From: an uncultured Clostridia bacterium
Lineage (GTDB): Bacteria; Bacillota; Clostridia; Lachnospirales; Lachnospiraceae
Length of the DNA: 51,063 bases
Assembly: GCA_947385955.1 (NCBI GenBank)
Contig: CANDNA010000024.1
Coordinates: 1 to 51,063 of the forward strand
Reading direction: 5' to 3'
The translations under genes were made by a program, and so were the position numbers. Below, one piece after another: positions 919 to 37,985 of this stretch; the stretch's first letter is position 1; each line of letters starts with the position of its first letter. The notes beneath the pieces were generated by a model, which was not told the DNA's origin, searched no databases, and saw only the letters and a program-made list of their open reading frames with translations.

Positions 919-3900
919 ATGGGAAATAAAATCCGTTCGATGCAAAATAAAATAGAGAGAATTTCAACGCGAATGATTGATTCCGTGGAAAAATCTGTTC
1001 AAAAAGGTAAGAGTGTGGTAAAGGTACGGATGGACACTCTTGGGAGCCATTTCAAAGATGCCATTGATAACAATCATAAAAGAAGCAGTTGGATCAATGT
1101 TACGGTATTATTGACAAATTTTATGGCTCTTCTGGCATATCATTCTATGGATGCTGTGCTGGCAGAGTATCAGGGAACAAAGAGACTTTACTATGCTTCT
1201 ATTATCATTTCTCTGTTTTTAATGCTTGTTTTGATATGGGAATTGGTTTGCTGTCTGGGATATGAGTATATGGTAAAGATACTTTTTTTCATCAAAAATA
1301 AGATGAAAGAAGCCGGTTATTTTTTATACATGCATTTTAGAAAAGTGTGCGTATTTCTGGTGTTATTAAGTGCGATTGGCTTATATATCTGCTTTTGCCC
1401 TGTTACAAGATGTTATGATTCTGTCATTGAAGTCTATGGAATACCAACAGGAGTGGGACAGCCACTGACAGATGAAGAACTGGCCTGCAGATCGGGTTAT
1501 TGGAAAATTGAGAAGTATCCGCTCAGAAAACATATGACACTGACTTATGTGGAACCTTATGGACAGACAGAACTGATGGGCCAGTATTCCACAATGTATG
1601 CCATGCAGCTGTTTCAGCCGCCTGTCCGTGTGGAAATAGACTATAAAAAGACCAAAGAAAATGATAGAAATAAATATCGTTCTTATGGTCAGGAGTCTTA
1701 TCGCGCCGCCAGGGAAAACGGTTTTCTGGAACCTGTACAGATGCTTTATTATAGCAATGGCGGTAAATTATTACTGGAACTTGAGAAAAAGGAGTCAGGT
1801 CAATTTGAAATAATCTCGTATTCTTCTGAGGATAAACCGCAGCTTTTCAATTCCACTCTGTTCCGGATACCGGAAGAACAGACAACAAAAAGTGATATGA
1901 CTTCACAACAGGTTGAAATAGCATATAATGCAAAAGGACTGCCTGAGACGAAACGCCTGCGTGCTCAGACATACAATCTCTATGGAGTGAATGGGGAGCG
2001 TTATGCATACGATGACAGTGGCCGGTTGATTGCACTGTATTATCTTGACAGTAACGGCACTCCGGTTTGTAATAAATCCGGCATTATGATGATTTCCTTC
2101 CAATATGGAGAAGCAGGAAATCTGGAAAAAATCCGGTATTACAGTGATGAAAATGGGACGGAAAAAACAGAAGGGTTTCAGGGTGTTTTTTGTGAAAAGT
2201 TTGTATATGAAGATGGGAATCTGACAGAACGGGAACATTTGGATCGCAGTGAAAACTGGTGTTATGACAACAATGGTGTATACAAATACCTGTATTCCTA
2301 TGGGGATGACGGAGCGCTTGTCAAAGAGGAATTTCTGGGACGAAATGATGGGCCTGTTTATGACAATCGGTATCATAGCCGTTCCATTGGATTTGAAAAA
2401 ACAGGAGAGGGGGATGGGGAAATCATTGCTGTTTCTTTTGATTTTGCCGGCGCCGTATCAGAGGGTGGTAATACTGCAACCTCGGAGACAGCGCAGGAAA
2501 TGACAAGCATGAAAACAGATGAGTATAATGTGGTAAATATCCAATTGTCCAGTTCTGAGAAAGAAAATCAAAAATCGTGGAAAGGTGAATTGCTGTCGAA
2601 TGGCAGAAAAAACAGAAAAAAAGGAATAGCAGGAATGGAAGAAGCGGATTCTAAAAAGAATTATAGTTCCATCTGCTATACAATCAGAGGCGGTTGTATT
2701 TCAAGAATCAGTTATCACAATGCAGAAGGGGCATTGACGCCGAATGAAGAAGGATGTGCCATTAAGAATATCAGCTATGATCATATGCGGAAAACAGAGG
2801 AAAGCTATTGGAGCAGCGATCAGCAAAAGTGTATGATCAGCGGTGGATATGCGGCGATGAAAATTACATATGTGGATGATCAAAGCAATGAAATACAATG
2901 CCTGGAGTATCTGGATGAACAGGGAAAGCTGATTAACAATCAGGAGCTGGGATATGCCAGAGTGGTCTATGAGTACGGTGACAGAGACCGTGGCCAGAGT
3001 GTGCGGCAGTCATATTATGATCAGTTTGGAAAAGCTGTTTTATTGCCGGAACAGGGGTATGCCGGTGTGGAAAATCTATATGATGAAAATGGATTTCTGG
3101 TACAGGAAACCTATTATGATCAGGAAAGAATGTCTGCTTATCGGACCGACTATGGGGTGGCTGAGATACGATACCAATATTCGGACAGCGGGAATCTGAT
3201 CCGTGAATGGTACAATGATGTGAATGGAAATATGATTAACCGGCAGGATACAGGATATGCAGTAAGATATCGGGAATATGAGGCAGGTCAGATCACAGGA
3301 GAACATTATGAAGGACTTCAGGGGCAGACACAGGCTTTGTGTATGGTTTCGGATAAAGTAACAGGAGCCACTGAGATTGTGTATCATTATAAAAATGGCC
3401 TGAAGACAGAGGAGGCTTATTTTGACGGCAATGGGAAGCCGGTGCTGCACAATGAAACCGGATGTGCCAGACGGCAGTATGAGTATAAAGAAGGAATGCT
3501 TTACAAACAGTATTTTTATGGACTGGATGATCAATTGATCCTGCGAAGGGATCTGGGCGCGGCGATCATTAAGACAGAGTATAATGATTCCGGACAGCGT
3601 ATTTCTACTTTTTACTATGGTACAGATGAGCGGCCTGTGATCAGCAGCAAATATAACTGCGCGGGTTTTAAGTATGACTACGATGAAACCAGTGGGAATC
3701 AGACAGACATCTGGTACACAGGATTGGATGGGGCATATATGATTCGTAAGGATCTGGGGTATGCCCAGGTGCATTCAGAATATGATGCCGCAGGAAATGA
3801 GGTAAAAACAGAGTTTTTTGATACGCAGGGAAAGCCTGTGGCCAAAAAAGAAGGGGGATTCGCTTCCTATCAGTCTGTCTATGAAAATGGAGAGTGTGTG

Positions 3901-6900
3901 GAGCGGCATTATTATGATGAAGAGGGAAAGCCTGTACTGCGCAGGGACCGGGGGTATGCTTATTATATAGATACATTTCAGAATGGGAACTGTGTGGAAT
4001 CACGGTATTATGATACGCAGGGGCAACTGATACTCCGCAAAGACCGGGGGTATGCAATCATTAAGAGGGAATATGATACATTGGGCAGGTGTATTTCTGA
4101 GCAGTATTATGGGACAAAGGAGCAGCCTGTGATCAGTACCGAATACCAGTGTGCAGGTTTCCGATATGCTTATGATGAGCGGGGAAATGAAACGGAAATC
4201 AAGTTTACCGGAAGAGACAATAAGCCCATGCTGCGTGGGGATCGGGGATATGCTATTGTAAAGTATGAGTATGATGATCTGGGGCGTCGTGTAAAAGAGC
4301 GCTATTTTGACACAGTGGGAATGCCTGTGATCAGCAGCAAATATCAGTGCGCAGGTTTTGCATATGAATATGATGAAAGAGGAAATGAAACAAAAATAGA
4401 ATACCTGGGAAGCGATGGAAATGGTATGATACGCAGAAACTATGGATATGCTCAGGTATACAAAGAATATGACAGTGCGGGAAATCTGGTCAGTGAAAAA
4501 TATTATGATACCGGAAAGCATGCTGCAATCTGGAAAGAAAGAGGGTATGCAGAGTTCCTGGATATCTATGAAAATGGGAACTGTGTGGAAAGCCGGTATT
4601 ATGATGTGAAAGGCAATCTGGTACTGCGGAAAGATAATGGATGCGCAATAATCAAACGGGAGTATGATACAGTGGGGCGGATGGTTTCCATCCTTTACTA
4701 CGGGACAGAAAATGAGCCGGTTATCAATACAGAGTATCATTGTGCAGGCTTCCGGTATATTTATGACGAAAATGGTAATGAAACGGATGTACAATATATA
4801 GGGCCGGATGGCGGGCTGATGATCCGCACGGATATTGGAAGCGCCGGGATACAATATGAATATGATACCCTGGGACAGGAAGTGAAAGTGAGTTTTCTGG
4901 ATACCAAGGGGAATCTTACGGCCAATAAAGAAGGCGGTTACGCTTACCGGGAACTTACCTATGAGGGGGAAAACAATACAGAGTGTTGTTATTATGATGT
5001 GAATGAGCAGCCGGTATTAAGAAAAGACAGAGGGTACGCGGTTGTTAAATATGAATATGATACACTTGGAAGATGTAGCTCGGAACAGTATTATGACACC
5101 ACAGGAAAGAAGCAGATTGTCAGTACCGAATATCAGTGTGCAGGATTTTTATATACTTATGATGAAAGAGGAAACCAAAATACACTTCATTATTGGGGGC
5201 CGGATGGCAGTATGATATCCCGAATAGGCGGTTATGGGTATGCTCAGGAAACGACAGCATATGACAGCTTCGGGAATCCGGTCAGGGGTTCGTTTCTGGA
5301 CAGGGAAGGGAATCCGACGGTATGGCAGGAACGGGGGTATGCTTCTTATGTGGAGCGCTATGAAAATGGCAGAAGGACAGAAGTACAGTATTGTGATCTG
5401 GAAGGCAATCCGGTACTGCGGAAAGAGTATGGATATGCGACTGTTAAGACGGAATATGATGAGTTTGGTCAGCAAATCTCGGTTTCCTATCTGGGAAAGT
5501 GGGGACAGCCGGTCTTTAACAGGGAAGAGAACTGCGCCGGTTTCCGGTATGCCTATGATGAAAAAGGAAATCAGACCGATATCTGGTATGTGGGCCTGGA
5601 CGGAAAAGCGATGATACGGACAGACCGGGGGTATGCCCATATACATTCAGAGTATGATGATATGGGATATGCGGTAAAAACCTCTTATTTTGATCAGGAG
5701 GAAAATCCTGTGGCAATCAAAGAGGGCGGTTATGCTTCCGTTACCTCTGTATATCAGGATGACCAGTGTGTGGAGGAGCATTATTATGATGTGGAAGGGA
5801 AGCCGATGCTGCGGACAGACCGGGGATACGCGTATTTTAAAGATACATTTGAGAATGGAAGGTGTGTGGAGAACCGGTATTATGATACGCAGGGCGCTTT
5901 GATTCTGCGAAAGGATCTGGGGTGCGCGGTGATCAAACAGGAGTATGATCTGTATGGACAGCGTCTTTCTGTGGCTTATTATGATACAGAGGAACAACCG
6001 GTGATCAGCAGTAAGTATCAATGTGCCGGTTTCCGATATACTTATGATGAAAAAGGAAACCGGACCGATACCTGCTATATCGGACCTGACGGGAATCTGC
6101 TGACGGATGAGGAATTAGGCTATGCACAAATCCATTGGGAATATGATGCTCTGGGACGGGAAATCAGAGAAGAATACCTTGATCCGGATAGAAATCCTGC
6201 GACCGCAATAGATGTTGGCTACGCCGCAGTGGAAACAGCTTACAGGGATGGAAGAATTTCGGAATATCGTTATTATGACAAAGACGGTAAGCTGATATTG
6301 TTGGCGGATGAGGGCTATGCCATCGTTAAATATAAGTACAACAGTATGGGACAGTCAGAGTTTTTTTTCTATTATGACACAGAGGAAAAACCGATTATTG
6401 GAGGTAAATACTGTGCAGGAATGGAATATCGGTATGATGAAAAAGGGAACAGAACTTATATCCGGTATCTTGATCTGGATGGAAAAACGCTTCTGGAACG
6501 GGAGGATTTTGGCGCTTCTCTTTGCTACGCCTGGTTTGATGAGTACGGGAATCTGGCGTGGGAAGGATATTATAAGCAGGTGGACGGAGAGTGGCAGTTG
6601 GTAATCAGAAAGGATGTAGGGTATGCGGGAGTGAGAAATACTTATGAAGGAGGCAATCTGACCAAAGTCGAATATGTGGATGAGCAGAAACAGCCTGTGA
6701 CTTATCAAAGCGGAGGCTATGCCACTGTAATCAATATATACACAGAAGCAGACCAGATCCAGTCAAAGAGCTATTATGATACACAGGGCAATCTGGTCAA
6801 TGGAAGTAATGGATATGCACAGATCCTGTATGAGTATGATGGATCAGGAAATCTTGCAAAACGCATTTGCTACGATCAAAACGGTATGGAAGTAACAGGA

Positions 6901-26463: not shown

Positions 26464-27603
26464 ATGGATGAAAAAAAGAAAAAATGGCTGGCAGCTGCAA
26501 TAGGGACAGGGGCAATCCTGATTTTGCTGTTAACAGGAACTGTCATGGTGAGCTGGCACATGATTTCAGAAAAAATAACAGAGACAGAGCAGGCTCAGAC
26601 AGCCGGTATGCCGGCAGAAGGGGAAGAAGAGGCAGGCGGAGAGGATGCGGAGCAGGCAGAAGCCGGGAATCATGAGCCGGTGCGCTGTGAGACCAAAGGG
26701 CTTTCTTTTGAAGTATATGGGGACTGGGAAAGTGCGGAAAACGGTGAATATGCGTATATGATACAGGGGGAGTCAGGCGTGTATTATATATGGCTGAACG
26801 GAGTATCCATGCTTGGCGGCGGTGCGGTACAGGAGATGTATGAGGATTTGGCTCTGTATTATCAGGATGAAGTGGAGGAGTATCAGGTTTCTCATTATGA
26901 TAAAGAGATGACGGAAGTGATGCTGGCAGAAGGTGTGGCATGTCAGTGGGGTGTTGTCCACGGCAGCAATGGAATGGGAATCTATGATACGATGGTGGTA
27001 ACGGTACCCGACAGAAATTATATGATTACCTTTGGTGGATACACAGAAGATGGAAAAGAGGAAGAACTGCTGGATATTCTGGTGTCTCTGTGTAAAAGCC
27101 TGCAGTTTGAAATCGGCAGCCGGGATGAGATCAGCGGCAATACATTTCTGACGGAAACAGGAGGGAAACTCTGTCTGCACCAGGATGGGACATTTGCGCT
27201 TTATGATGCAGGGGGCAGTGCCGGAAGCGGGGATTACGGCGGTACTTATGAGGTATATTACGGGGAAGCAGCGGTGGATGAGGCAGTGCGCTCCCTGTAT
27301 CTGCCGTTGGAGATTGTGGAGAAGATCATATCCTATAATATGAACGGGTATGCGCCCGGGGGAATCTTTCCGGATTCTGTACCGGAGGGACGGATGCGCT
27401 ATCGGATCTGCAGGGACACTTTTTATGTCGTATCACTGCATATTGACAGGCGGTTTTCAGAAACAGGAGAGGAAGAGACAATAGAAGAGCGGGATGCCAA
27501 TTATTTCGGATTTTATATTCCGGAACTGGAAAGTGCCGATTTTGTGGATGAAACCACCTACGAGTATGCAGTATGGGAGTTTCAGTGCGTTACAGAAGGG
27601 TAG
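26464..27603 (+). CDS. Unknown membrane-anchored extracellular protein
   Basis: Protein of 379 residues. A charged N-terminus (DEKKKKW) and one helix (about residues 10-30) are followed by a Glu/Ala/Gly-rich spacer (about 40-68) and an extracytoplasmic domain rich in acidic and aromatic residues. A middle section, VTVPDRNYMITFGGYTEDG.. then LLDILVSLCKSLQFE, resembles the way small lipoprotein-like domains end, but no family could be assigned. A C-terminal section contains GKLCLHQDGTFALYD and GSGDYGGTYEV, which looks like a beta-rich fold. It starts 14 nt after the preceding gene and is 24 nt before the next. Function unknown. Confidence 0.68.
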   Translation: MDEKKKKWLAAAIGTGAILILLLTGTVMVSWHMISEKITETEQAQTAGMPAEGEEEAGGEDAEQAEAGNHEPVRCETKGLSFEVYGDWESAENGEYAYMIQGESGVYYIWLNGVSMLGGGAVQEMYEDLALYYQDEVEEYQVSHYDKEMTEVMLAEGVACQWGVVHGSNGMGIYDTMVVTVPDRNYMITFGGYTEDGKEEELLDILVSLCKSLQFEIGSRDEISGNTFLTETGGKLCLHQDGTFALYDAGGSAGSGDYGGTYEVYYGEAAVDEAVRSLYLPLEIVEKIISYNMNGYAPGGIFPDSVPEGRMRYRICRDTFYVVSLHIDRRFSETGEEETIEERDANYFGFYIPELESADFVDETTYEYAVWEFQCVTEG

Positions 27604-27627: not shown

Positions 27628-30600
27628 ATGATCAGGGAGAAAAAGTATCCGTATAAAGCAGGGATTGGAGCAGTGATTTTGCTGTTGTTTCTGTGGGGAA
27701 TGCGGGTAAATGAGGGAGAAAAAATAAACCGGGAGCCGGGAAGGGAACCGCAGCAGAGCCGGGAAGCGGCAAAAGAGGACCCGGAGGAAGAGACGCAGCC
27801 GGAGCTGGATTTTGATGCCAGTCTGGCGGTGCAGGAAGAGCTGCATGAGATCCCGGCGCTGGGATATGGAAGTATGTCCATGCATGGGGGCGGTGATTAT
27901 GCATGCTGGGAAGATATGCTGATATTGAAAGACCGGGTTTACAGACGGGGAAAGGACGGATTCCGGAGACAGGAGGAAACGATATACGATCTCTTTGGCC
28001 TGTATGAACCGGAGAATCCGCAGGTATATGGGAAAGTCCGCCAGTATCAGAACCTGCTTGTGATCAAAAAGGTCAATACGTTTCTGCTGTATGATATGGA
28101 GAGCGGCAATGTGGAAACGTATTCATGCAGGCAAAAAGAAGGGACTGAAAAAATCAGTGTAGAGTCGGATTGGTATATTTATGAGGGCGGCCTGTATTTT
28201 ATGGTAACGGAGCAGGCAGAATCACCGGTCAGGAGCATCCGGCGGCTGGATTTGTCAGACAGGAGTGAACAGATATTTTATGCGTCGGCCGGGAATAAAT
28301 GGGAAATGCTGGACCGGTTTATGATGGGCGGGGACGGTTCTGTGATCACGCAGTTTTGTGATACGGAAGAGGGGAGAGCGGCAGAGTTTCGGTATCTGGA
28401 CAGCAGCGGACAGGTAACAGAGCGGATACACCTGGAGTATCCATATGATATCCGAAGCAGACAGGGGGAAAACTGGCTTGCATATAACGGATGCGGATTG
28501 TTTCTGAAAGAAAAAGACGGACGGATTTGGGGAAGCAGCGGGGTATTCTGTCAGGAAACGGAAGGGATGCGCCGGGCAGTGGGACTGAATCCCGAAGAGG
28601 ATGTCATCTTTACCGAACATGGATATGTTTCCTGTGACAAAGGCTCTTTTTATGATTTTCAGGGAAATCTGCTGGCAGAATGTTTTTCAAATAAAGAGGC
28701 CGGTGAAGCCGGATACGTGTTGCAGACTGTGGTGTATGAGGCGGGGACACTTACAGCTTTTTATGAAAAAAAAGAGGCGGGGACATTATATGTTTCCAGA
28801 GCCCGCATCGGGAATGCGGAGGCTGTGGCTGACCGGGCAGATCTGCAGTATTGGATCGAAGAGAAGAAAGCGCCCCGCATCCTGGTAACGCCGGATGGGG
28901 AAGTGGGAAACATCACGGGGTATGTACTGGAACGGACGAAATATGAAATGGCATATGTGAAGAAGGCGGATGTGCTGACGGAGCCGGAGCTGGTTGGAAA
29001 TGGGATTTTTGTTTCGGAACACATGGAAGATACAGAGCGTTTTCTGGCAGATGTGCTGCAGGAGCTGTTAGAGAGCCAGGGGGAGGCCGGGGAGGAAAAC
29101 CGTGAGCTTGTTTCGGACTGGGCCATACAGCAGATGCAGGAGACAGACTGGACAGAACTGGCAGACTGGCGGATGAATGCAGACCGGTATGACTGTTCCT
29201 GGGAGGCGAACAGGATGTATGCCGGAAATGGGTACGATTTTTTTTATGTATTTCATCAGGACAGGGAAGCATTGGGTGGAAACTGTCAGGAGGAGACTTA
29301 TGAAATCGAGGTTCGTGTCCTGGTCAGCGTGGATGGCTGCGGCGTGCTCCGGGGAATCCGGATATGGCCGGATGCGAGGTATTACGGCCATACTATGGAG
29401 GACTGTACTTATGGAAACGAAGGAAACCGGTTGGAAGTATATGGCCACAGCGTGCAGGTGATCCGGGCAGGAAGGGGCAGCAGCAACGCGGTACTGCCGG
29501 GTTTTGACGCCTATTGGGATAAGGAGGCGGAAAAAGCCACCATACAGCCCTGCGGTCTGTTTGCGGAGGGAAAGGAAGATGCGGCAGGCTGTGCGGGAAA
29601 AATAGAGACAATACTGCGGGATGTGCTGGAAAGCCGGGGTGAATATGCGCCGGTATATCAGGAACTGTTCAGTACAGGTCAATGGGCTGCACGGTTTGCG
29701 CAGCAGGGCTGGGAACAGCTTGAAACGGACTGGAAAGCAGGGCCTGATTATGACTGCTATTTTCTGGATCTGGCCAGAGAGCGGGACTATGTGCGGTTTT
29801 GCTATTATTTTTATCCTGATTTTGGCCGGATGGGCGTGGATGAGGCAAAGGCGGCTGTGGTTTCCTGTTGTGTGGATCAGGAAGGGAAACTGTGCGATAC
29901 AAAGCTGCAGATCGTATCCATGACAAAGGCAGAGTATATGGCAGTCAGAGCCAAAGGGGCATATGAGACAACAAAAGGTCAGATCTGGCTGATTGGAAAC
30001 GGAGAACCCCAAAAGGGAATCTGTGAGCTTACATTTCCTCTGTGGGGAATGGAGGATGCCGGGGAAGCGGCCGGCTATATCGGAGACCGGATACTGGAAG
30101 ATCTGAACGGACATCGGGTGGAAGAAGGCAGGATAAGAGACCTTTTGTCAGACAAAGAGGATGCCGGGAAAAATCTGGAGACTTTGGCGAAATGTCTTTC
30201 GGATGCCGGCCAAAAGTGGAAAGGCCGGGAAACATATGCCTGCTGGGAGATCACGGAGCAGGCAAGAAGCGGCTGCGTCTGCTTCCGATATGTATTTGAG
30301 CGATACCGTCCATTTCAGGGAAAACGGCGCAATCTGTGGATGGATGTGTATGTGTCAGAAGAGGGGATAGAGGAAATCCGGCCTTATATCATGATCAGCG
30401 GAGAAAACGTGACATGGACAGATGTACCGGAAGGAGCATTGAAATGGGACGGCGCCCCGGAGTATGGTGTATCTGAAGCAGAAAAGGCACTGCTGGGATT
30501 CTTAAAGGATAAAGAGGAAGCTCTTGTAAAAGAAGAGGCACTGGATGAACGGGTACTGTATTATTATGAGGCGTTTGCCTCGGATATGAGGAAACGAAGC

Positions 30601-31062
30601 AGAGCCGGTTTTGCGGATTTACAGAAGTCTGTTATGGAACACTGTGGTTTTGAAGAGCAGATGCCTGTCAGGACAGAATATGCTTTTCTGGACTGTGGCG
30701 GTGACGGCTGTCTGGATTTGATTTTCAGATTTGTTCTGCGGGAAACAGAATATGAACGTGAGAATATGAATTTTGTGGTGACGGCAGGAGAGAACGGTTT
30801 GAGCCTGAGCCGGGTGTTTACGACATGGAACCGATATCAGGAAACTTTGTACTATTACGGGTATGGGCAGACGTATGGAAGCGGCGGGACCGTAAATTGC
30901 TGGAGTGAGTATTACATCGGCAGTGACGGTTCTGTAGAAGAACTGTTTCGGGGAGAAAGTAAACCGGCAGAAGAGCTGATCCGGCAGCGGAAAAAAGAAC
31001 TGGGGCTTCCGGAATCCTGTCTGGAGAAAAAAGAGCTGAAATGGATGGTATATGAATCCTGA
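27628..31062 (+). CDS. Large unknown membrane-anchored protein with three internal repeats
   Basis: Protein of 1,144 residues. One N-terminal helix (about residues 11-27) and a Glu/Arg/Pro-rich spacer are followed by a beta-rich region (about 60-430) with propeller-like phrases such as LLYDMESGNVETYS and RRLDLSDRSEQIFYAS. From ~470 to ~985 a domain of about 165-185 residues occurs three times. Each copy begins with a helix like ADVLQELLES or ILRDVLESRG, and contains Y[DA]C.. followed by an aromatic strand (YDCSWEAN..YDFFYVF at ~520, YDCYFLDL..VRFCYYF at ~706, YACWEITE..VCFRYVF at ~869). The C-terminal domain has DCGGDGCLDLIF, reminiscent of FG-GAP/calcium-loop sequences. It is the last gene of the three-gene unit; promoter elements for an ABC transporter follow. 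Function unknown; a surface sensor or binding protein is a guess. Confidence 0.7.
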   Translation: MIREKKYPYKAGIGAVILLLFLWGMRVNEGEKINREPGREPQQSREAAKEDPEEETQPELDFDASLAVQEELHEIPALGYGSMSMHGGGDYACWEDMLILKDRVYRRGKDGFRRQEETIYDLFGLYEPENPQVYGKVRQYQNLLVIKKVNTFLLYDMESGNVETYSCRQKEGTEKISVESDWYIYEGGLYFMVTEQAESPVRSIRRLDLSDRSEQIFYASAGNKWEMLDRFMMGGDGSVITQFCDTEEGRAAEFRYLDSSGQVTERIHLEYPYDIRSRQGENWLAYNGCGLFLKEKDGRIWGSSGVFCQETEGMRRAVGLNPEEDVIFTEHGYVSCDKGSFYDFQGNLLAECFSNKEAGEAGYVLQTVVYEAGTLTAFYEKKEAGTLYVSRARIGNAEAVADRADLQYWIEEKKAPRILVTPDGEVGNITGYVLERTKYEMAYVKKADVLTEPELVGNGIFVSEHMEDTERFLADVLQELLESQGEAGEENRELVSDWAIQQMQETDWTELADWRMNADRYDCSWEANRMYAGNGYDFFYVFHQDREALGGNCQEETYEIEVRVLVSVDGCGVLRGIRIWPDARYYGHTMEDCTYGNEGNRLEVYGHSVQVIRAGRGSSNAVLPGFDAYWDKEAEKATIQPCGLFAEGKEDAAGCAGKIETILRDVLESRGEYAPVYQELFSTGQWAARFAQQGWEQLETDWKAGPDYDCYFLDLARERDYVRFCYYFYPDFGRMGVDEAKAAVVSCCVDQEGKLCDTKLQIVSMTKAEYMAVRAKGAYETTKGQIWLIGNGEPQKGICELTFPLWGMEDAGEAAGYIGDRILEDLNGHRVEEGRIRDLLSDKEDAGKNLETLAKCLSDAGQKWKGRETYACWEITEQARSGCVCFRYVFERYRPFQGKRRNLWMDVYVSEEGIEEIRPYIMISGENVTWTDVPEGALKWDGAPEYGVSEAEKALLGFLKDKEEALVKEEALDERVLYYYEAFASDMRKRSRAGFADLQKSVMEHCGFEEQMPVRTEYAFLDCGGDGCLDLIFRFVLRETEYERENMNFVVTAGENGLSLSRVFTTWNRYQETLYYYGYGQTYGSGGTVNCWSEYYIGSDGSVEELFRGESKPAEELIRQRKKELGLPESCLEKKELKWMVYES

Positions 31063-31163: not shown

Positions 31164-32048
31164 ATGAAAAAATTTGCAGCGTTATGTATGGCGCTTTGCC
31201 TGTCGGCAATGCTGACGGCATGCGGTGATGCGGCGCAGGGGGATGCACCGGCAGCAGACAACGGGGCAGCCGAGAGCGGCGCAGCAGAGGGCACAGAGGC
31301 AGAAGGGGGAGCAGAGGAGGCATCCGATGCGATTCCCAATACGGTAAATTCTCTGGATGATCTGCCGGGCAAGACCATCGGTGTACAGCTTGGTACGACA
31401 GGGGATATTTTTGCCAGCGATTATGAGACAGAAGGGTCTACCATTGAGCGTTATAACAAGGGTGCAGATGCGGTACAGGCTCTGAAACAGGGCAAGATTG
31501 ACTGTGTAATCATTGATGCGCAGCCGGCACAGGCATTTGTGGAAAAAAATGATGATCTGACAATTCTGGAAGAGGATTTCGCAGTGGAAGACTATGCCAT
31601 TTGTGTATCTAAAGATAAAAAAGATCTGACAGAGGCAATGAACGGCGCTCTGAAGGAATTGAAAGAAGAAGGGGTTCTGGATCAGATTGTGTCAAATTAC
31701 ATCGGAGATGAGACAAAGGGAACCTGCCCTTACGAATCTCCTGCAGATGCTGAGTATCCCAACGGCAAGCTGATTATGGCAACCAACGCTGCATTTGAGC
31801 CTTATGAATACTATGAAGGACAGGACATTGTGGGAATCGATGCGGAAATCGCAAGAGCGGTATGTGATAAGCTGGGATATGAACTGCAGATTGATGATAT
31901 GGAATTTGATGCTATCATCAATGCAGTACAGTCCGGTAAGGCAGATTTTGGCGCTGCCGGTATGACAGTGACAGAAGACCGTCTGACAAGCATTGATTTT
32001 ACAGATTCTTATGCTACTTCCACACAGGTTGTTATTGTCAGAAAATAA
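31164..32048 (+). CDS. Amino-acid ABC transporter binding lipoprotein, circularly permuted SBP_bac_3
   Basis: Surface lipoprotein of 294 residues (signal peptide and lipobox LTAC, Cys20) expected to deliver a polar amino acid to the permease at 32189. An Ala/Glu/Gly-rich linker (21-57) leads to the ligand-binding part. In standard SBP_bac_3 proteins the segment LIMATNAAFEPYEY..GIDAEIA..ADFGAAGMTVTEDR..IDFTDSY comes first and the segment SLDDLPGKTIGVQ..DYAICV..DQIVSNY comes second. Here the order is reversed: the usual C-terminal half occupies residues 57-182 and the usual N-terminal half 201-294, joined by a linker with CPYESPADAEYPNGK. All parts needed for a two-lobed fold are present once, so this looks like a true circular permutation rather than a truncation. 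Start: ATG at 31164 behind GGAGGAG. A hairpin terminator follows. Confidence 0.88.
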   Translation: MKKFAALCMALCLSAMLTACGDAAQGDAPAADNGAAESGAAEGTEAEGGAEEASDAIPNTVNSLDDLPGKTIGVQLGTTGDIFASDYETEGSTIERYNKGADAVQALKQGKIDCVIIDAQPAQAFVEKNDDLTILEEDFAVEDYAICVSKDKKDLTEAMNGALKELKEEGVLDQIVSNYIGDETKGTCPYESPADAEYPNGKLIMATNAAFEPYEYYEGQDIVGIDAEIARAVCDKLGYELQIDDMEFDAIINAVQSGKADFGAAGMTVTEDRLTSIDFTDSYATSTQVVIVRK

Positions 32049-32188: not shown

Positions 32189-32878
32189 GTGGAGGATTTT
32201 AAGTTACGCTTTTATACCAATTTTATCAAAGATGACAGGTATATGTATCTGGTAACCGGTCTGGGCAATACCCTGGCCATTACGTTTCTGGCAGTGCTGC
32301 TGGGGATTGTACTGGGTTTTCTGGTGGCAATCATACGGTCAACTTATGATAAGACGGGGAAGGGCAGGATACTCAATGCTTTGTGCAGAGTTTATCTTAC
32401 GGTGATCCGGGGCACACCGATGATGGTGCAGCTTATGATTATGTGTTATGTGGTATTCGGAAACTATAATATGAGCAAGCTGATTGTGGCAACACTGGCT
32501 TTCGGCATCAATTCCGGGGCTTATGTGGCGGAAATTGTCCGTTCCGGTATTATGTCCATTGATCCGGGGCAGTTGGAGGCAGGCAGGAGCCTGGGATTTG
32601 GTTATACGCAGACCATGTGGTATATCATTATGCCTCAGGCTTTTAAAAATGTGCTCCCGGCCCTTGCCAATGAATTTATTGTATTGCTGAAGGAGACATC
32701 GGTTTGCGGATATATCGGTATGATGGACCTGACCAGAGGAGGGGATATCATCAGAAGCCGTACCTATGAGGCATTTATGCCGTTGATTGCGGTGGCGATT
32801 ATTTATCTGGTCATGGTGATTGTGCTTTCGTGGCTGGTTGGAAAACTGGAAAGGAGGCTGCGTACAAGTGAGCGGTAA
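32189..32878 (+). CDS. Amino-acid ABC transporter permease
   Basis: Integral membrane subunit of 229 residues of the polar-amino-acid (HisMQ/GlnP) type. Several hydrophobic helices are visible, beginning at [20 protein letters not shown]. The coupling EAA-type loop is present as [20 protein letters not shown] followed by [24 protein letters not shown] is also a family signature. The start is GTG at 32189 after GAAGGATG. The end overlaps the ATPase gene by 11 nt. As a single permease gene it should act as a homodimer. Confidence 0.94.
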
Positions 32879-33611
32879 GGGAGAAGTATTGTTTGAAATA
32901 CAGGATTTGTGCAAGGCTTTCGGAAGCAATCTGGTATTGGATCATATCAGCACACAGATAAAGAGCGGGGAGGTCGTGGTGATCGTAGGTCCTTCGGGTT
33001 CGGGCAAGTCTACTTTTCTGCGTTCGCTGAACCTGCTGGAAATCCCGACTTCGGGGACAATTTCATTTGAAGGACAACATATTACAGATAAGAAAACAGA
33101 TCTGAACCGATATCGACAGAAGATTGGTATGGTATTTCAGCATTTTAATCTGTTCCCTCATAAGACCATACTGGAAAACCTGACGCTGGCGCCGATAAAG
33201 CTGTTAAAAAAGTCCAGAGAAGAGGCGGAAAAAGAGGCCAGAGGGCTGCTGGCACGTGTAGGGCTGGAGGAAAAGGCGGGGGCATATCCGGCCCAGCTTT
33301 CAGGCGGCCAGAAGCAGAGAATTGCCATTGTCCGTTCTCTTGCCATGCATCCGGAAGTGATGCTGTTTGATGAACCCACATCTGCACTGGACCCGGAGAT
33401 GGTGGGAGAAGTGTTGAATGTTATGACAGACCTGGCCCGGGACGGTATGACGATGGTGATTGTGACACACGAGATGGGATTTGCCAGAGAAGTGGGGACC
33501 AGAGTGATCTTTATTGATGAGGGGGTCATCAAGGAGGAGAACAACCCAAAAGACTTTTTTGAGCATCCGCAGAATCCCAGGCTGCAGGAGTTTTTGTCCA
33601 AGATTATATAA
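32868..33611 (+). CDS. Amino-acid ABC transporter ATP-binding protein
   Basis: ATPase subunit of 247 residues. Walker [11 protein letters not shown]-loop in [14 protein letters not shown], signature [11 protein letters not shown], Walker [14 protein letters not shown] and the switch His in VTHEMGFA are all intact, in the GlnQ/HisP pattern. The start is taken as the GTG at 32868, with AAAGGAGG nine nucleotides upstream inside the permease gene; an in-frame start at 32820 lacks support. Tight overlap with the permease indicates translational coupling. Confidence 0.95.
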
Positions 33612-35008: not shown

Positions 35009-36541
35009 TTGTTGCTCAACGGATCAAAATTTAAAGAAAAACTGAATGAAACAATTAAGGCAGTGTTCCCGATTATTGCCATCGTATTACTTTTATGCTT
35101 TACGATTGCACCGATTTCACCCAGTATCCTGATGGCATTTCTGATAGGTGCGGTGTTATTAACTGTGGGAATGCTGCTTTTTTCTATCGGGGCGGAGCTG
35201 TCCATGACACCTATTGGCGGGCGGGTCGGTACTACGATGACAAAGAGCCGGAAACTGTCTGTTATGATATTGGTCAGTTTTACGCTTGGATTCATTATTA
35301 CGATTTCGGAGCCGGATCTGCAGGTGCTGGCAGGGCAGGTGCCTTCCATACCCAATATAGTGCTGATTCTGGCAGTGGCAGTGGGCGTGGGCTGCTTTCT
35401 GGTGATTGCTCTTTTGCGTATGCTGTTCGGGATCGGGCTTTCCTATATGCTGCTGGCTTTTTACGGGCTGGTGTTTCTACTGGCGTATTTTGTACCCAGA
35501 GACTTTCTTTCTGTGGCATTTGACTCTGGCGGTGTTACCACCGGGCCGATGACAGTACCCTTTATTATGGCGCTGGGTGTGGGGATTTCTGCCATCCGAA
35601 GTGATGAACATGCGTCGGATGACAGTTTCGGTCTGGTTTCCCTCTGCTCTGTGGGGCCTGTGATCGCAGTGCTGATTCTGGGAATGATCTATCATCCCGG
35701 AAGCGCGGATTATGTGCCGGCATCCATCCCGGATATAGACAATTCTGTGGAGCTGTGGCGGCTGTTTACGGTGGGATTTCCGCTTTACATAAAGGAGATG
35801 GCACTTTCCCTTCTGCCGATTATCCTGTTTTTTGGCCTGTTTCAGGTGATTTCCAGAGACATTGAAAAAAAGGGGCTGATTAAAATTATCATTGGCCTGG
35901 TTTATACCTATGTGGGGCTTGTCCTGTTCCTGACAGGGGTGAATGTGGGCTTTATGCCTGCCGGTAATTATCTGGGACAGGTGATTGCGGGACTGCCGTA
36001 TGCCTGGATCATTATCCCCATTGGTATGGTGATCGGTTATTTTATCGTGTTGGCGGAGCCGGCAGTATTTGTGCTTACCAGGCAGGTGGAGGATATCACT
36101 TCCGGAGCGATTTCGGCCAAATCTATGGAGCTGAGCCTGTCAATCGGGGTGGCGGTTTCCATTGGGATTGCCATGCTGCGGGTTCTGACAGGAATTTCGA
36201 TTATGTGGTTTATCATTCCGGGATATGCGGCTGCTCTGGTTCTGACGTTTCTGGTGCCCCGTATTTTTACGGCCATTGCCTTTGATTCCGGAGGAGTGGC
36301 ATCAGGGCCTATGACGGCTACGTTTCTGCTTCCGCTGGCTATGGGGGCCTGCAGTGTACTGGGCGGCAATATTGTGACGGATGCTTTTGGGGTGGTATCA
36401 ATGGTAGCGATGACTCCATTGATTACCATACAGGGACTGGGGCTGCTTTACCGCCTGAAAGCAGGACACCTGGAAAAAGAGGCGGCTGGAAGTCCTGCAT
36501 CTCTGGATACCTATGGGGATATGGAAATTATTGAATTGTAA
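35009..36541 (+). CDS. DUF1538 multi-pass membrane protein, probable transporter
   Basis: Integral membrane protein of 510 residues with about 12 hydrophobic helices. It consists of two similar halves, each bearing the DUF1538 signature: VAFDSGGVTTGPMTVPF (about residue 170) and IAFDSGGVASGPMTATF (about 430), each followed by a FG[LV]VS segment. Two-fold internal repeats of this kind are usual in secondary transporters, and the family is generally assumed to move small ions or solutes, but the substrate is unknown. The following gene encodes a tandem PII protein, implying PII control of transport. The start is taken as TTG at 35009 after a weak GGAAAGG; a TATACT at 34933-34938 may be its -10 box. 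Confidence 0.85.
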   Translation: MLLNGSKFKEKLNETIKAVFPIIAIVLLLCFTIAPISPSILMAFLIGAVLLTVGMLLFSIGAELSMTPIGGRVGTTMTKSRKLSVMILVSFTLGFIITISEPDLQVLAGQVPSIPNIVLILAVAVGVGCFLVIALLRMLFGIGLSYMLLAFYGLVFLLAYFVPRDFLSVAFDSGGVTTGPMTVPFIMALGVGISAIRSDEHASDDSFGLVSLCSVGPVIAVLILGMIYHPGSADYVPASIPDIDNSVELWRLFTVGFPLYIKEMALSLLPIILFFGLFQVISRDIEKKGLIKIIIGLVYTYVGLVLFLTGVNVGFMPAGNYLGQVIAGLPYAWIIIPIGMVIGYFIVLAEPAVFVLTRQVEDITSGAISAKSMELSLSIGVAVSIGIAMLRVLTGISIMWFIIPGYAAALVLTFLVPRIFTAIAFDSGGVASGPMTATFLLPLAMGACSVLGGNIVTDAFGVVSMVAMTPLITIQGLGLLYRLKAGHLEKEAAGSPASLDTYGDMEIIEL

Positions 36542-36577
36542 TGCCCGGTAACAGACGGGAAAACAGCGGGGGTTTGC

Positions 36578-37258
36578 ATGGGCAAATTGTACTTGATGAC
36601 TACGATTATCAACAGGAAGCAGATCAAAAAATATATGGGATTGTACCAGGAGGAAGGGCTTCTGGTTACCTTTATTACGCTGGGGTCCGGTACGGCTTCC
36701 GGGGCCATGCTGGATTATCTCGGGCTGGAAGCAACCGAAAAAGCGGTTATTTTTACGGTTCTGGAGGAAAGCAGATGGAAAAAGACCCAGAAAGATCTGC
36801 GGCAGAGATTCCACATTGATGCGCCCGGTGAAGGGGTGGCTTTTATCGTTCCCCTGAGCAGCATCGGCGGAAAGAAAGCCCTGCAGTTTCTGACAGCAGA
36901 TCAGGAATATCAGAAAGAGGAGGAGTCGGCTTTGAAGGATACGGTATATGAGCTTATTATGATCATTGCCAATCAGGGAAATATAGAGCTTGTGATGGAT
37001 GCGGCCAGAAGCGCAGGCGCTTACGGCGGCACTGTACTCCACGCCAAGGGGACAGGAACGGAGCAGGCGGAGCGGTTTATGGGGGTTTCTCTTGCCGCAG
37101 AAAAGGAAATGATCTTTATCGTGGCTAAAAAAGAACAGAAAAATGAAATTATGAAAGCCGTGATGGAAAAGGCCGGACTGAAATCCAAAGCCAAAGCAGT
37201 TGTCTTTTCTCTGCCGGTGACAGATACTGCCGGACTGAGGCTTTTGGAAGAGGATTAG
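36578..37258 (+). CDS. Tandem PII-like signalling protein
   Basis: Protein of 226 residues with two PII-fold units. The first (about 1-110) begins GKLYLMTTIINRKQ; the second (about 118-220) includes YELIMIIANQGNIELVMDAARSAGAYGGTVLHAKG and ends AKAVVFSLPVTDTAGL, matching the order of strands and the T-loop position of GlnB-type proteins. The classical uridylylation Tyr of the T-loop is not evident. PII proteins sense nucleotides such as ATP, ADP or cyclic dinucleotides and block or open membrane transporters; the gene lies 36 nt after a DUF1538 transporter, which is its most likely target. Being a fusion of two PII domains it would trimerise differently from GlnB. The start ATG follows GCGGGGG. 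Confidence 0.82.
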   Translation: MGKLYLMTTIINRKQIKKYMGLYQEEGLLVTFITLGSGTASGAMLDYLGLEATEKAVIFTVLEESRWKKTQKDLRQRFHIDAPGEGVAFIVPLSSIGGKKALQFLTADQEYQKEEESALKDTVYELIMIIANQGNIELVMDAARSAGAYGGTVLHAKGTGTEQAERFMGVSLAAEKEMIFIVAKKEQKNEIMKAVMEKAGLKSKAKAVVFSLPVTDTAGLRLLEED

Positions 37259-37364
37259 AGGGAGCTGATCTGACCGGCGTCCATATCCAGATGCAGAAGG
37301 CTGTCGTAGTTCTGTAAGACGAAATCCGGGCATATACTGTTGAAAAACGGGGAATATCAGGTAT

Positions 37365-37985
37365 ATGTTAAATGTAATCTGGGGGAGTATGATTATCATA
37401 GGAATCGTCTATGGTGCATTGACCGGGCATATGGCGGAAGTGACCAATGCGGCGCTGGATTCGTCCAGGGAGGCGGTCAATCTCTGCATTACCATGATCG
37501 GCGTGATGGCACTCTGGATGGGGCTGATGGAAATAGCAGAAAAAGCGGGACTGATTGACAAGTGGACAAAGGCAATCAGTCCTTTTGTTTCGTTTATGTT
37601 TCCGGATATTCCGAAAGACCATATGGCCCGAAAATACATTTCCACCAACATCATTGCCAATGTGCTGGGACTGGGCTGGGCCTGTACCCCTGCCGGATTA
37701 AAGGCGATGGAGGAGCTGGCCAGACTGGAGGCGGAGCGGGGAAATCCGGAATACCGGATGCCGGACAGCGGCAGAAAGCGGGCGGCCAGCAATGAGATGT
37801 GTGTATTTTTGATTTTGAATATCTCGTCCCTGCAGCTTATTCCGGTCAATATGATCGCTTACAGAAGCCAGTATGGCAGTGTAAACCCGGCAGTGATTAT
37901 CGCGCCGGCAATATTGGCGACGGCGGTGAGCACGGTGGCGGCGGTGATATTTTGTAAGGCGAAAGACAGGAGGCGGAGAGCGTAG
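37365..37985 (+). CDS. spmA: Spore maturation protein A (SpmA)
   Basis: Membrane protein of 206 residues with the nucleoside-recognition (Gate) domain. The segments IWGSMIIIGIVYGALTG, EAVNLCITMIGVMALWMGLM, AGLIDKWTKAISPFVSFMFP and LGLGWACTPAGLKAMEEL are characteristic of SpmA. In B. subtilis SpmA and SpmB together promote dehydration of the spore core. Here spmA follows the PII gene by 106 nt, and spmB is 1.5 kb further on, separated by a DUF3048 lipoprotein gene with its own promoter. The ATG at 37365 has only a weak ribosome site. Confidence 0.93.
   Translation: MLNVIWGSMIIIGIVYGALTGHMAEVTNAALDSSREAVNLCITMIGVMALWMGLMEIAEKAGLIDKWTKAISPFVSFMFPDIPKDHMARKYISTNIIANVLGLGWACTPAGLKAMEELARLEAERGNPEYRMPDSGRKRAASNEMCVFLILNISSLQLIPVNMIAYRSQYGSVNPAVIIAPAILATAVSTVAAVIFCKAKDRRRRA

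Follow-up and report, generated by a model that had tools for sequence, protein, structure and literature searches.

Does the amino-acid-binding protein encoded at positions 31164-32048 of contig CANDNA010000024.1, from an uncultured Clostridia bacterium of the Lachnospiraceae, carry the two halves of its fold in swapped order, and is that order inherited? The gene lies in the 51,063-nucleotide stretch of this contig that we analysed (the window), and the initial annotation had described its product as a circularly permuted substrate-binding protein (SBP) of the SBP_bac_3 family. We consider it highly probable that the product is a permuted SBP lipoprotein of a polar amino-acid ATP-binding cassette (ABC) importer, and that permuted forms arose more than once in Clostridia.

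We label the canonical first half 1 and the two parts of the canonical second half 2a and 2b, and term the order 2a-2b-1 class I. The window protein scored 114.3 bits against PF00497 (gathering cut-off 26.4) in two stretches in reversed order, with no single collinear match: positions 1-92 of the 132-position profile aligned to residues 203-294, and the preceding residues matched the later part of the family, so this is not one collinear, lobe-1-first domain. Positions 122-250 of TIGR01096 aligned to residues 60-180 (133 bits, under its own cut-off of 256), and phmmer alignment to 6svf (E 1.4e-41) placed residues 200-294 on chain positions 9-104 and residues 63-180 on positions 112-227. These alignments show a non-collinear match with each half present once, as the initial annotation had proposed. 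The protein is a permuted variant of SBP_bac_3 and not a canonical member; two other SBP_bac_3 genes in the same genome were both collinear by PF00497 search. AlphaFold2 returned a single confident fold (predicted local distance difference test, pLDDT, 94.9), and the lobes of the model matched the type II fold in a piece-by-piece comparison. The model supports the suggestion of a circular permutation in which the fold would be preserved. Residues that contact the alpha-amino and alpha-carboxylate groups of the ligand (Arg, Thr, Gly and Asp, which we take to be R75, T70, G119 and D157 of glutamine-binding protein, GlnBP) are present in class I, in a second permuted class (class II, below) and in collinear forms, and where GlnBP has D10, 114 of 126 class I units carry Asn. 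The gene and the two that follow it are made up as below.

31164-32048, + strand: circularly permuted class I (order 2a-2b-1) SBP_bac_3 amino-acid-binding lipoprotein, 294 residues (profile and structure alignments, model)
31164-31223, + strand: lipoprotein signal peptide with lipobox LTAC at its end, Cys20 being 31221-31223 (sequence; lipobox pattern in relatives)
31224-31331, + strand: low-complexity Ala/Glu/Gly-rich tether, residues 21-56 (sequence)
31332-31709, + strand: canonical second half (lobe 2 and C-terminal lobe-1 helices), residues 57-182, now first (TIGR01096, phmmer)
31710-31763, + strand: new linker from the old C-terminus to the old N-terminus, residues 183-200, ETKGTCPYESPADAEYPN (sequence)
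31764-32045, + strand: canonical first half (lobe 1), residues 201-294, now last, ending in QVVIVRK (PF00497, phmmer, model)
32189-32878, + strand: amino-acid ABC permease (PF00528; TIGR01726 HEQRo_perm_3TM over its cut-off, 66 against 42.2 bits) (profile match)
32868-33611, + strand: GlnQ-like ABC ATPase (PF00005) (profile match)

A ribosome-binding-like site, GGAGGAG, stands directly 5' of the ATG at 31164. The tether differs in length among relatives, and the majority consensus of the linker in an alignment of relatives (A1) is GDDTKGxxPYxSPxxVDRSNG. The ATPase probably starts at GTG 32868, inside the 3' end of the permease gene (the open reading frame, ORF, is listed from TTG 32820), and its GlnQ-like NCBIfam score is 321 bits, under the cut-off of 379.

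The swapped order, which the initial annotation suggested seeking in other Lachnospiraceae, proved to be widespread. Seven of ten genomes of the window's genus carry it (own genome counted) at 75-100% identity; in five of the six others the match spans residues 1-294, and in G007 residues 56-294. One profile scan of genome contigs (titled genome records) confirmed 116 loci, of which the best 80 were taken: the swapped order occurs within a single ORF at 79 of these, and the remaining one (L101, Roseburia porci) has one half in each of two successive ORFs, likewise swapped. Together with the genus genomes, these loci exclude chance or assembly error as the source of the order, and in particular the joining of two partial genes. 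Alignment A1 holds 68 other rows with the same order, 50-92% identical to the window protein. Of the 397 genomes sampled from the family, at least 81 gave a full-length profile match (E <= 2e-84), and 85 rows were listed down to 4.3e-80; these are lower bounds, since weaker matches fell outside the listing and at most seven candidates were scored per genome. Segment order was read only at fetched loci, and a full-length match is by itself no proof of order, because one further genome with such a match, G203, carries a collinear triple SBP-SBP-SBP-permease. At E 1e-55, 32 of 391 genomes of the class matched; the match covered the full length in 23, and in the other 9 it began at about model position 70-78. 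Of 398 genomes of the phylum, 3 matched, namely the window's own and two others of the same family. From these counts class I looks like a Clostridia trait.

Several loci showed further arrangements. Class I SBP-permease fusion genes are split into two ORFs at L101 (3917-5482) and L129 (2392-3985), through sequencing error or decay, and two further fusions (L103, 3848-5386; L113, 3848-5392) come from metagenome-assembled genomes (MAGs) titled Alphaproteobacteria, reflecting transfer from Clostridia or a binning error. The Lachnospiraceae record L053 has tandem class I genes (2957-3754 and 3902-4717) that have diverged, being 60% and 77% identical to the window protein in A1. The G203 gene (L115, 1413-4331) encodes 973 residues; its SBP domains are near-identical (end branches 0.02-0.05), and the array is a recent in-frame triplication. 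Two genomes of the window's genus, G001 and G004, hold remote class I-like SBP-permease fusions (L118, 2403-3950; L123, 2759-4378) at 32-33% identity, each with a longer ATPase ORF (365 and 362 residues) behind it, as well as a collinear SBP operon (L119, L126); because of long branches any origin assigned to these fusions would be tentative.

Where is the chain cut? The initial annotation had placed the cut at the strand joining the lobes and the lipid anchor at the hinge, and neither placement held. The phmmer alignment pairs residue 293 of 294 with position 95 in the GlnBP chain 1ggg, about 6-10 residues beyond the hinge segment, which we take to be GlnBP 85-89. The model has two crossings, the long strands 86-94 and 230-239, and the C-terminal strand QVVIVRK returns to lobe 2. 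The cut is thus inside lobe 2, beyond the hinge; both hinge strands are retained, and the anchor moves with the termini from lobe 1 to lobe 2. A lipobox pattern marks 108 of the 117 distinct class I proteins, and the corresponding counts are 51 of 52 for class II and 53 of 56 for the collinear form, with medians of 8, 6 and 19 residues, respectively, from the Cys to the first domain segment; the 36 residues between Cys20 and residue 57 of the window protein are above the class I median. These counts, and those of permeases and fusions below, leave out ORFs of pattern 1-2b (n = 12) and identical proteins. The pattern missed L040, L140, L210 and L256, in which a plausible Cys is present. Lipobox presence and short spacing indicate that both permutations put the anchor on lobe 2, which may have been selected or may be a by-product. 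Four class I proteins (L045, L067, L069 and L081) have a plain signal peptide without the lipobox pattern and are perhaps released or otherwise held.

At loci with room for one, a permease gene comes next in 92 of 97 cases for class I, 48 of 50 for class II and 46 of 47 for the collinear form. SBP and permease form a single chain in 14 of the 117 distinct class I proteins. In seven fusions (L122, L133, L134, L140, L155-L157) the permease match begins 8-16 residues past the end of the SBP match. An adjoining family permease and ATPase are a trait of polar amino-acid uptake (PAAT) importers and are present beside the window protein, which supports the expectation of a working transporter setting. 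Judged from sequence, the ligand is probably an amino acid, and the system would be expected to be active in transport.

A second permutation occurs in the same family, with the order 2b-1-2a (class II). For phylogenetic analysis, units were placed in canonical segment order and then thinned. Six of 241 ORFs with partial segment sets were left out (L101 twice, L129 twice, L203, L078), and 237 units, in which the same gene recurs under several locus ids, gave 115 after thinning at about 80% identity. A quick tree kept 114 rows, long branches included, after one row under 190 residues was dropped. A careful tree kept 101 after removal of 13 long-branch rows, among them the class I fusions L012, L013, L103 and L113 and the diverged class I L124; the long rows L015, L226 and L227 stayed. 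Segment trees used 39 rows, without the FGDG group (named, like the groups below, for its linker), the triple and most class I rows. On the 101-row tree collinear, class I and class II units interleave, with seven class I and four class II changes by parsimony; well-supported branches force at least three and at least four, respectively, and none of 200 bootstrap trees had a single change for either class. Approximately unbiased (AU) tests rejected a single class II clade (p 6e-51), one clade made up of the four class II rows that do not belong to the FGDG group (p 2.4e-5) and a single class I clade (p 0.017).

Both a permuted and a collinear form occur at one locus in genus g389. Among its 85 genomes, 22 gave a full-length class II match, 57 a partial match as expected of the collinear form, and 6 none at E 1e-15; where order was read, all 22 were class II and 14 others all collinear (L238, L241, L242, L277-L281, L283-L288). 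G460 (class II) and G487 (collinear) have the gene at the same locus with orthologous neighbours on either side: identities are 89% for a 611-residue, 82% for a 312-residue and 64% for a 422-residue protein, 74% for the permease and 86% for the ATPase, and within the SBP 83% over 1-2a and 74% over 2b. The class II genome G599 has the same neighbours (82, 75, 59, 73 and 88% to G487), collinear G535 shares the three upstream neighbours, and in class II G706 the match is limited to the operon itself. Four DNA blocks are shared between G460 and G487: promoter and signal peptide (71-247 on 123-299, 73%), 2b (250-398 on 875-1023, 81%), 1-2a (451-965 on 335-864, 83%) and a downstream hairpin (1009-1072 on 1066-1130, 83%). 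Only the 149-bp 2b block has been relocated. The G460 gene closes with the codon and stop GGC TGA, as the collinear genes do; in most of the remaining class II genes the final codon and stop read AAA or AAG TAA. SBP and permease trees were built from 33 read loci, 32 of them distinct, from the 79 genomes with a match. The 22 class II proteins form one clade on the SBP tree (99/98), and on the permease tree the forms are mixed, with at least two changes forced and 0% of bootstraps with one, in a bootstrap not fully settled. Our interpretation is that operons have traded SBP alleles, reversion being the alternative; such exchange would mean that permuted and collinear chains work with almost identical permeases. 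Circular permutation has occurred more than once in this SBP family and has taken two forms; in genus g389 it can be seen to have happened in place.

Most probably the domain would first have been duplicated in tandem and in frame within the gene, and the outermost pieces would then have been lost, leaving the promoter, the signal peptide and the rest of the operon downstream where they were. The resulting chain would start in lobe 2, pass to lobe 1 and return to end in lobe 2. With the ligand pocket and both hinge strands kept, it should still be able to bind an amino acid, undergo closure and engage the permease, while the lipid tether would hold lobe 2 and not lobe 1. The importer would comprise the SBP, the ATPase and the product of one permease gene, presumably a homodimer.

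How firmly does this account stand against others? Many records are MAGs, in which assembly or binning could have fused two partial SBP genes, and we regard this as practically negligible: the 68 other rows of A1 share the order, which also appears in records without MAG in the title (Kineothrix sp. MSJ-39, Eisenbergiella porci, Lachnospiraceae bacterium G11) and in the one-contig genome G008. That the permuted SBP has become a sensor or decoy no longer feeding a transporter could draw on the tandem copies at L053 and is very unlikely given the adjoining permease and ATPase genes and the permease-fused proteins. The separable halves and the linker of about 18 residues would suit a domain-swapped dimer, which we hold to be improbable, if somewhat less so, because single-chain models are confident; a closed monomer would be expected.

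The weightiest competitor holds that few permutation events, one per class, were spread by transfer or recombination or reverted to the collinear order. Several observations favour it and weigh against repeated gains. Parsimony on an unrooted tree cannot separate gain from reversal; the case for several class I origins depends on a test with p 0.017, and on the quick tree, where long rows were retained, no more than one class I change is forced (class II again four). Among the four class II groups of the tree, L125 and L168/L171 have similar linkers (YISGxxHxLxFQ); a clade uniting these two is rejected on 1+2a (p 0.026) and not on 2b (p 0.265) or the full alignment (p 0.123), so one event followed by recombination is possible for them. 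The linker of L139, a class I protein nested among collinear rows, resembles that of the main class I group, and no duplicated intermediate (for example 2b-1-2a-2b) was seen among the loci read. On the other side stand the rejected class II clades, the dissimilar linkers of the FGDG, YISG and YIPSG class II groups, and the two cut sites, which require at least two events whatever the tree. On balance we judge the few-event explanation rather unlikely and prefer repeated permutation. Shared linkers lower the safe count, which would be about three class II origins (linkers FGDG, YISG and YIPSG) and at least one class I.

Elsewhere in the window, neither of two upstream ORFs (27628-31062, 1144 residues; 26464-27603, 379 residues) was matched by Pfam at E 0.001. 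At 35009-37985 a DUF1538 protein that carries the domain twice lies beside a P-II-like protein with an extra N-terminal part, where there is also a weak Gate domain match (26.2 bits, cut-off 29.6).

Among known systems, SBP_bac_3 proteins of the GlnH, ArtJ and TmArgBP type (type II; PF00497) share with the window protein its sequence (114 bits), ligand contacts, lipoprotein export and permease/ATPase operon; the window protein differs in its swapped halves, in having termini and anchor in lobe 2, and in the extra linker between the old ends. Engineered circular permutants of ancestral SBPs were reportedly made by Clifton et al. for Förster resonance energy transfer (FRET) sensors; they would show that a permuted SBP of this kind can be made to function, but they are man-made, and the window protein is natural and inherited. 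In tandem SBPs of the GlnPQ type (SBD1-SBD2-permease, 6h30) a lobe 2 precedes a lobe 1 in the same chain, an arrangement from which the permuted order could plausibly derive and of which G203 carries a triple version; in contrast, the window protein has one trap only and is unfused to the permease. The C-terminus of the window protein presumably falls near the channel insertion point of the ligand-binding domain of ionotropic glutamate receptors, and PF10613 (115 positions) reaches position 112 at residue 293 of 294 (26.2 bits, under the cut-off of 30); the receptor itself is not permuted, and its homology to the window protein is remote.

A natural precedent exists in type I. TpMglB-2 (Tp0684) is a permuted type I glucose-binding lipoprotein, proposed as 'Type Ic / cluster Bc', that binds ligand and changes shape and has relatives in Gram-positive gut bacteria (PMC4990184). 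Its permutation needs a fourth hinge crossing, the permuted part is just 13% identical to the canonical one, and its authors likewise suggest anchoring as a possible reason (PMC4990184). Both are naturally permuted, anchored binding proteins of ABC importers; the family of the window protein differs in being type II, in keeping two crossings, in more than one permutation and in having close collinear orthologues. The window protein is not of the type I (cluster B) sugar-binding family, as PF00497 is over cut-off and no sugar-SBP family was among the 5 Pfam and 16 NCBIfam matches listed at E 0.1. We found no natural permuted type II SBP in the literature searched, subscription papers being outside its coverage. 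The initial annotation, which knew of no established description of such a class, had missed the published type I case TpMglB-2 (PMC4990184) and the second permutation within this family.

It is possible, if doubtful, that permutation is a live and recurrent process in clostridial amino-acid SBPs, occurring in place at two lobe-2 cuts because a shift of the anchor or fused permease from lobe 1 to lobe 2 was favoured, with alleles interchangeable at one locus. As tentatively, since the class I cut would coincide with the site of channel attachment in ionotropic glutamate receptors, a single point of the fold may have served on two occasions in nature for joining lobe 2 to a membrane component. 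As a rule, natural circular permutants are known as old end states only. Collinear and permuted orthologues at one locus in one genus make the DNA path, the functional cost and any advantage directly testable, and offer a rare view of how circularly permuted proteins originate. Family annotation masks the permutation, as Pfam gives plain SBP_bac_3. The finding separates fold from chain order in Venus-flytrap binding proteins, and the question of which lobe needs membrane tethering bears on importer mechanism, sensor design and glutamate receptors.
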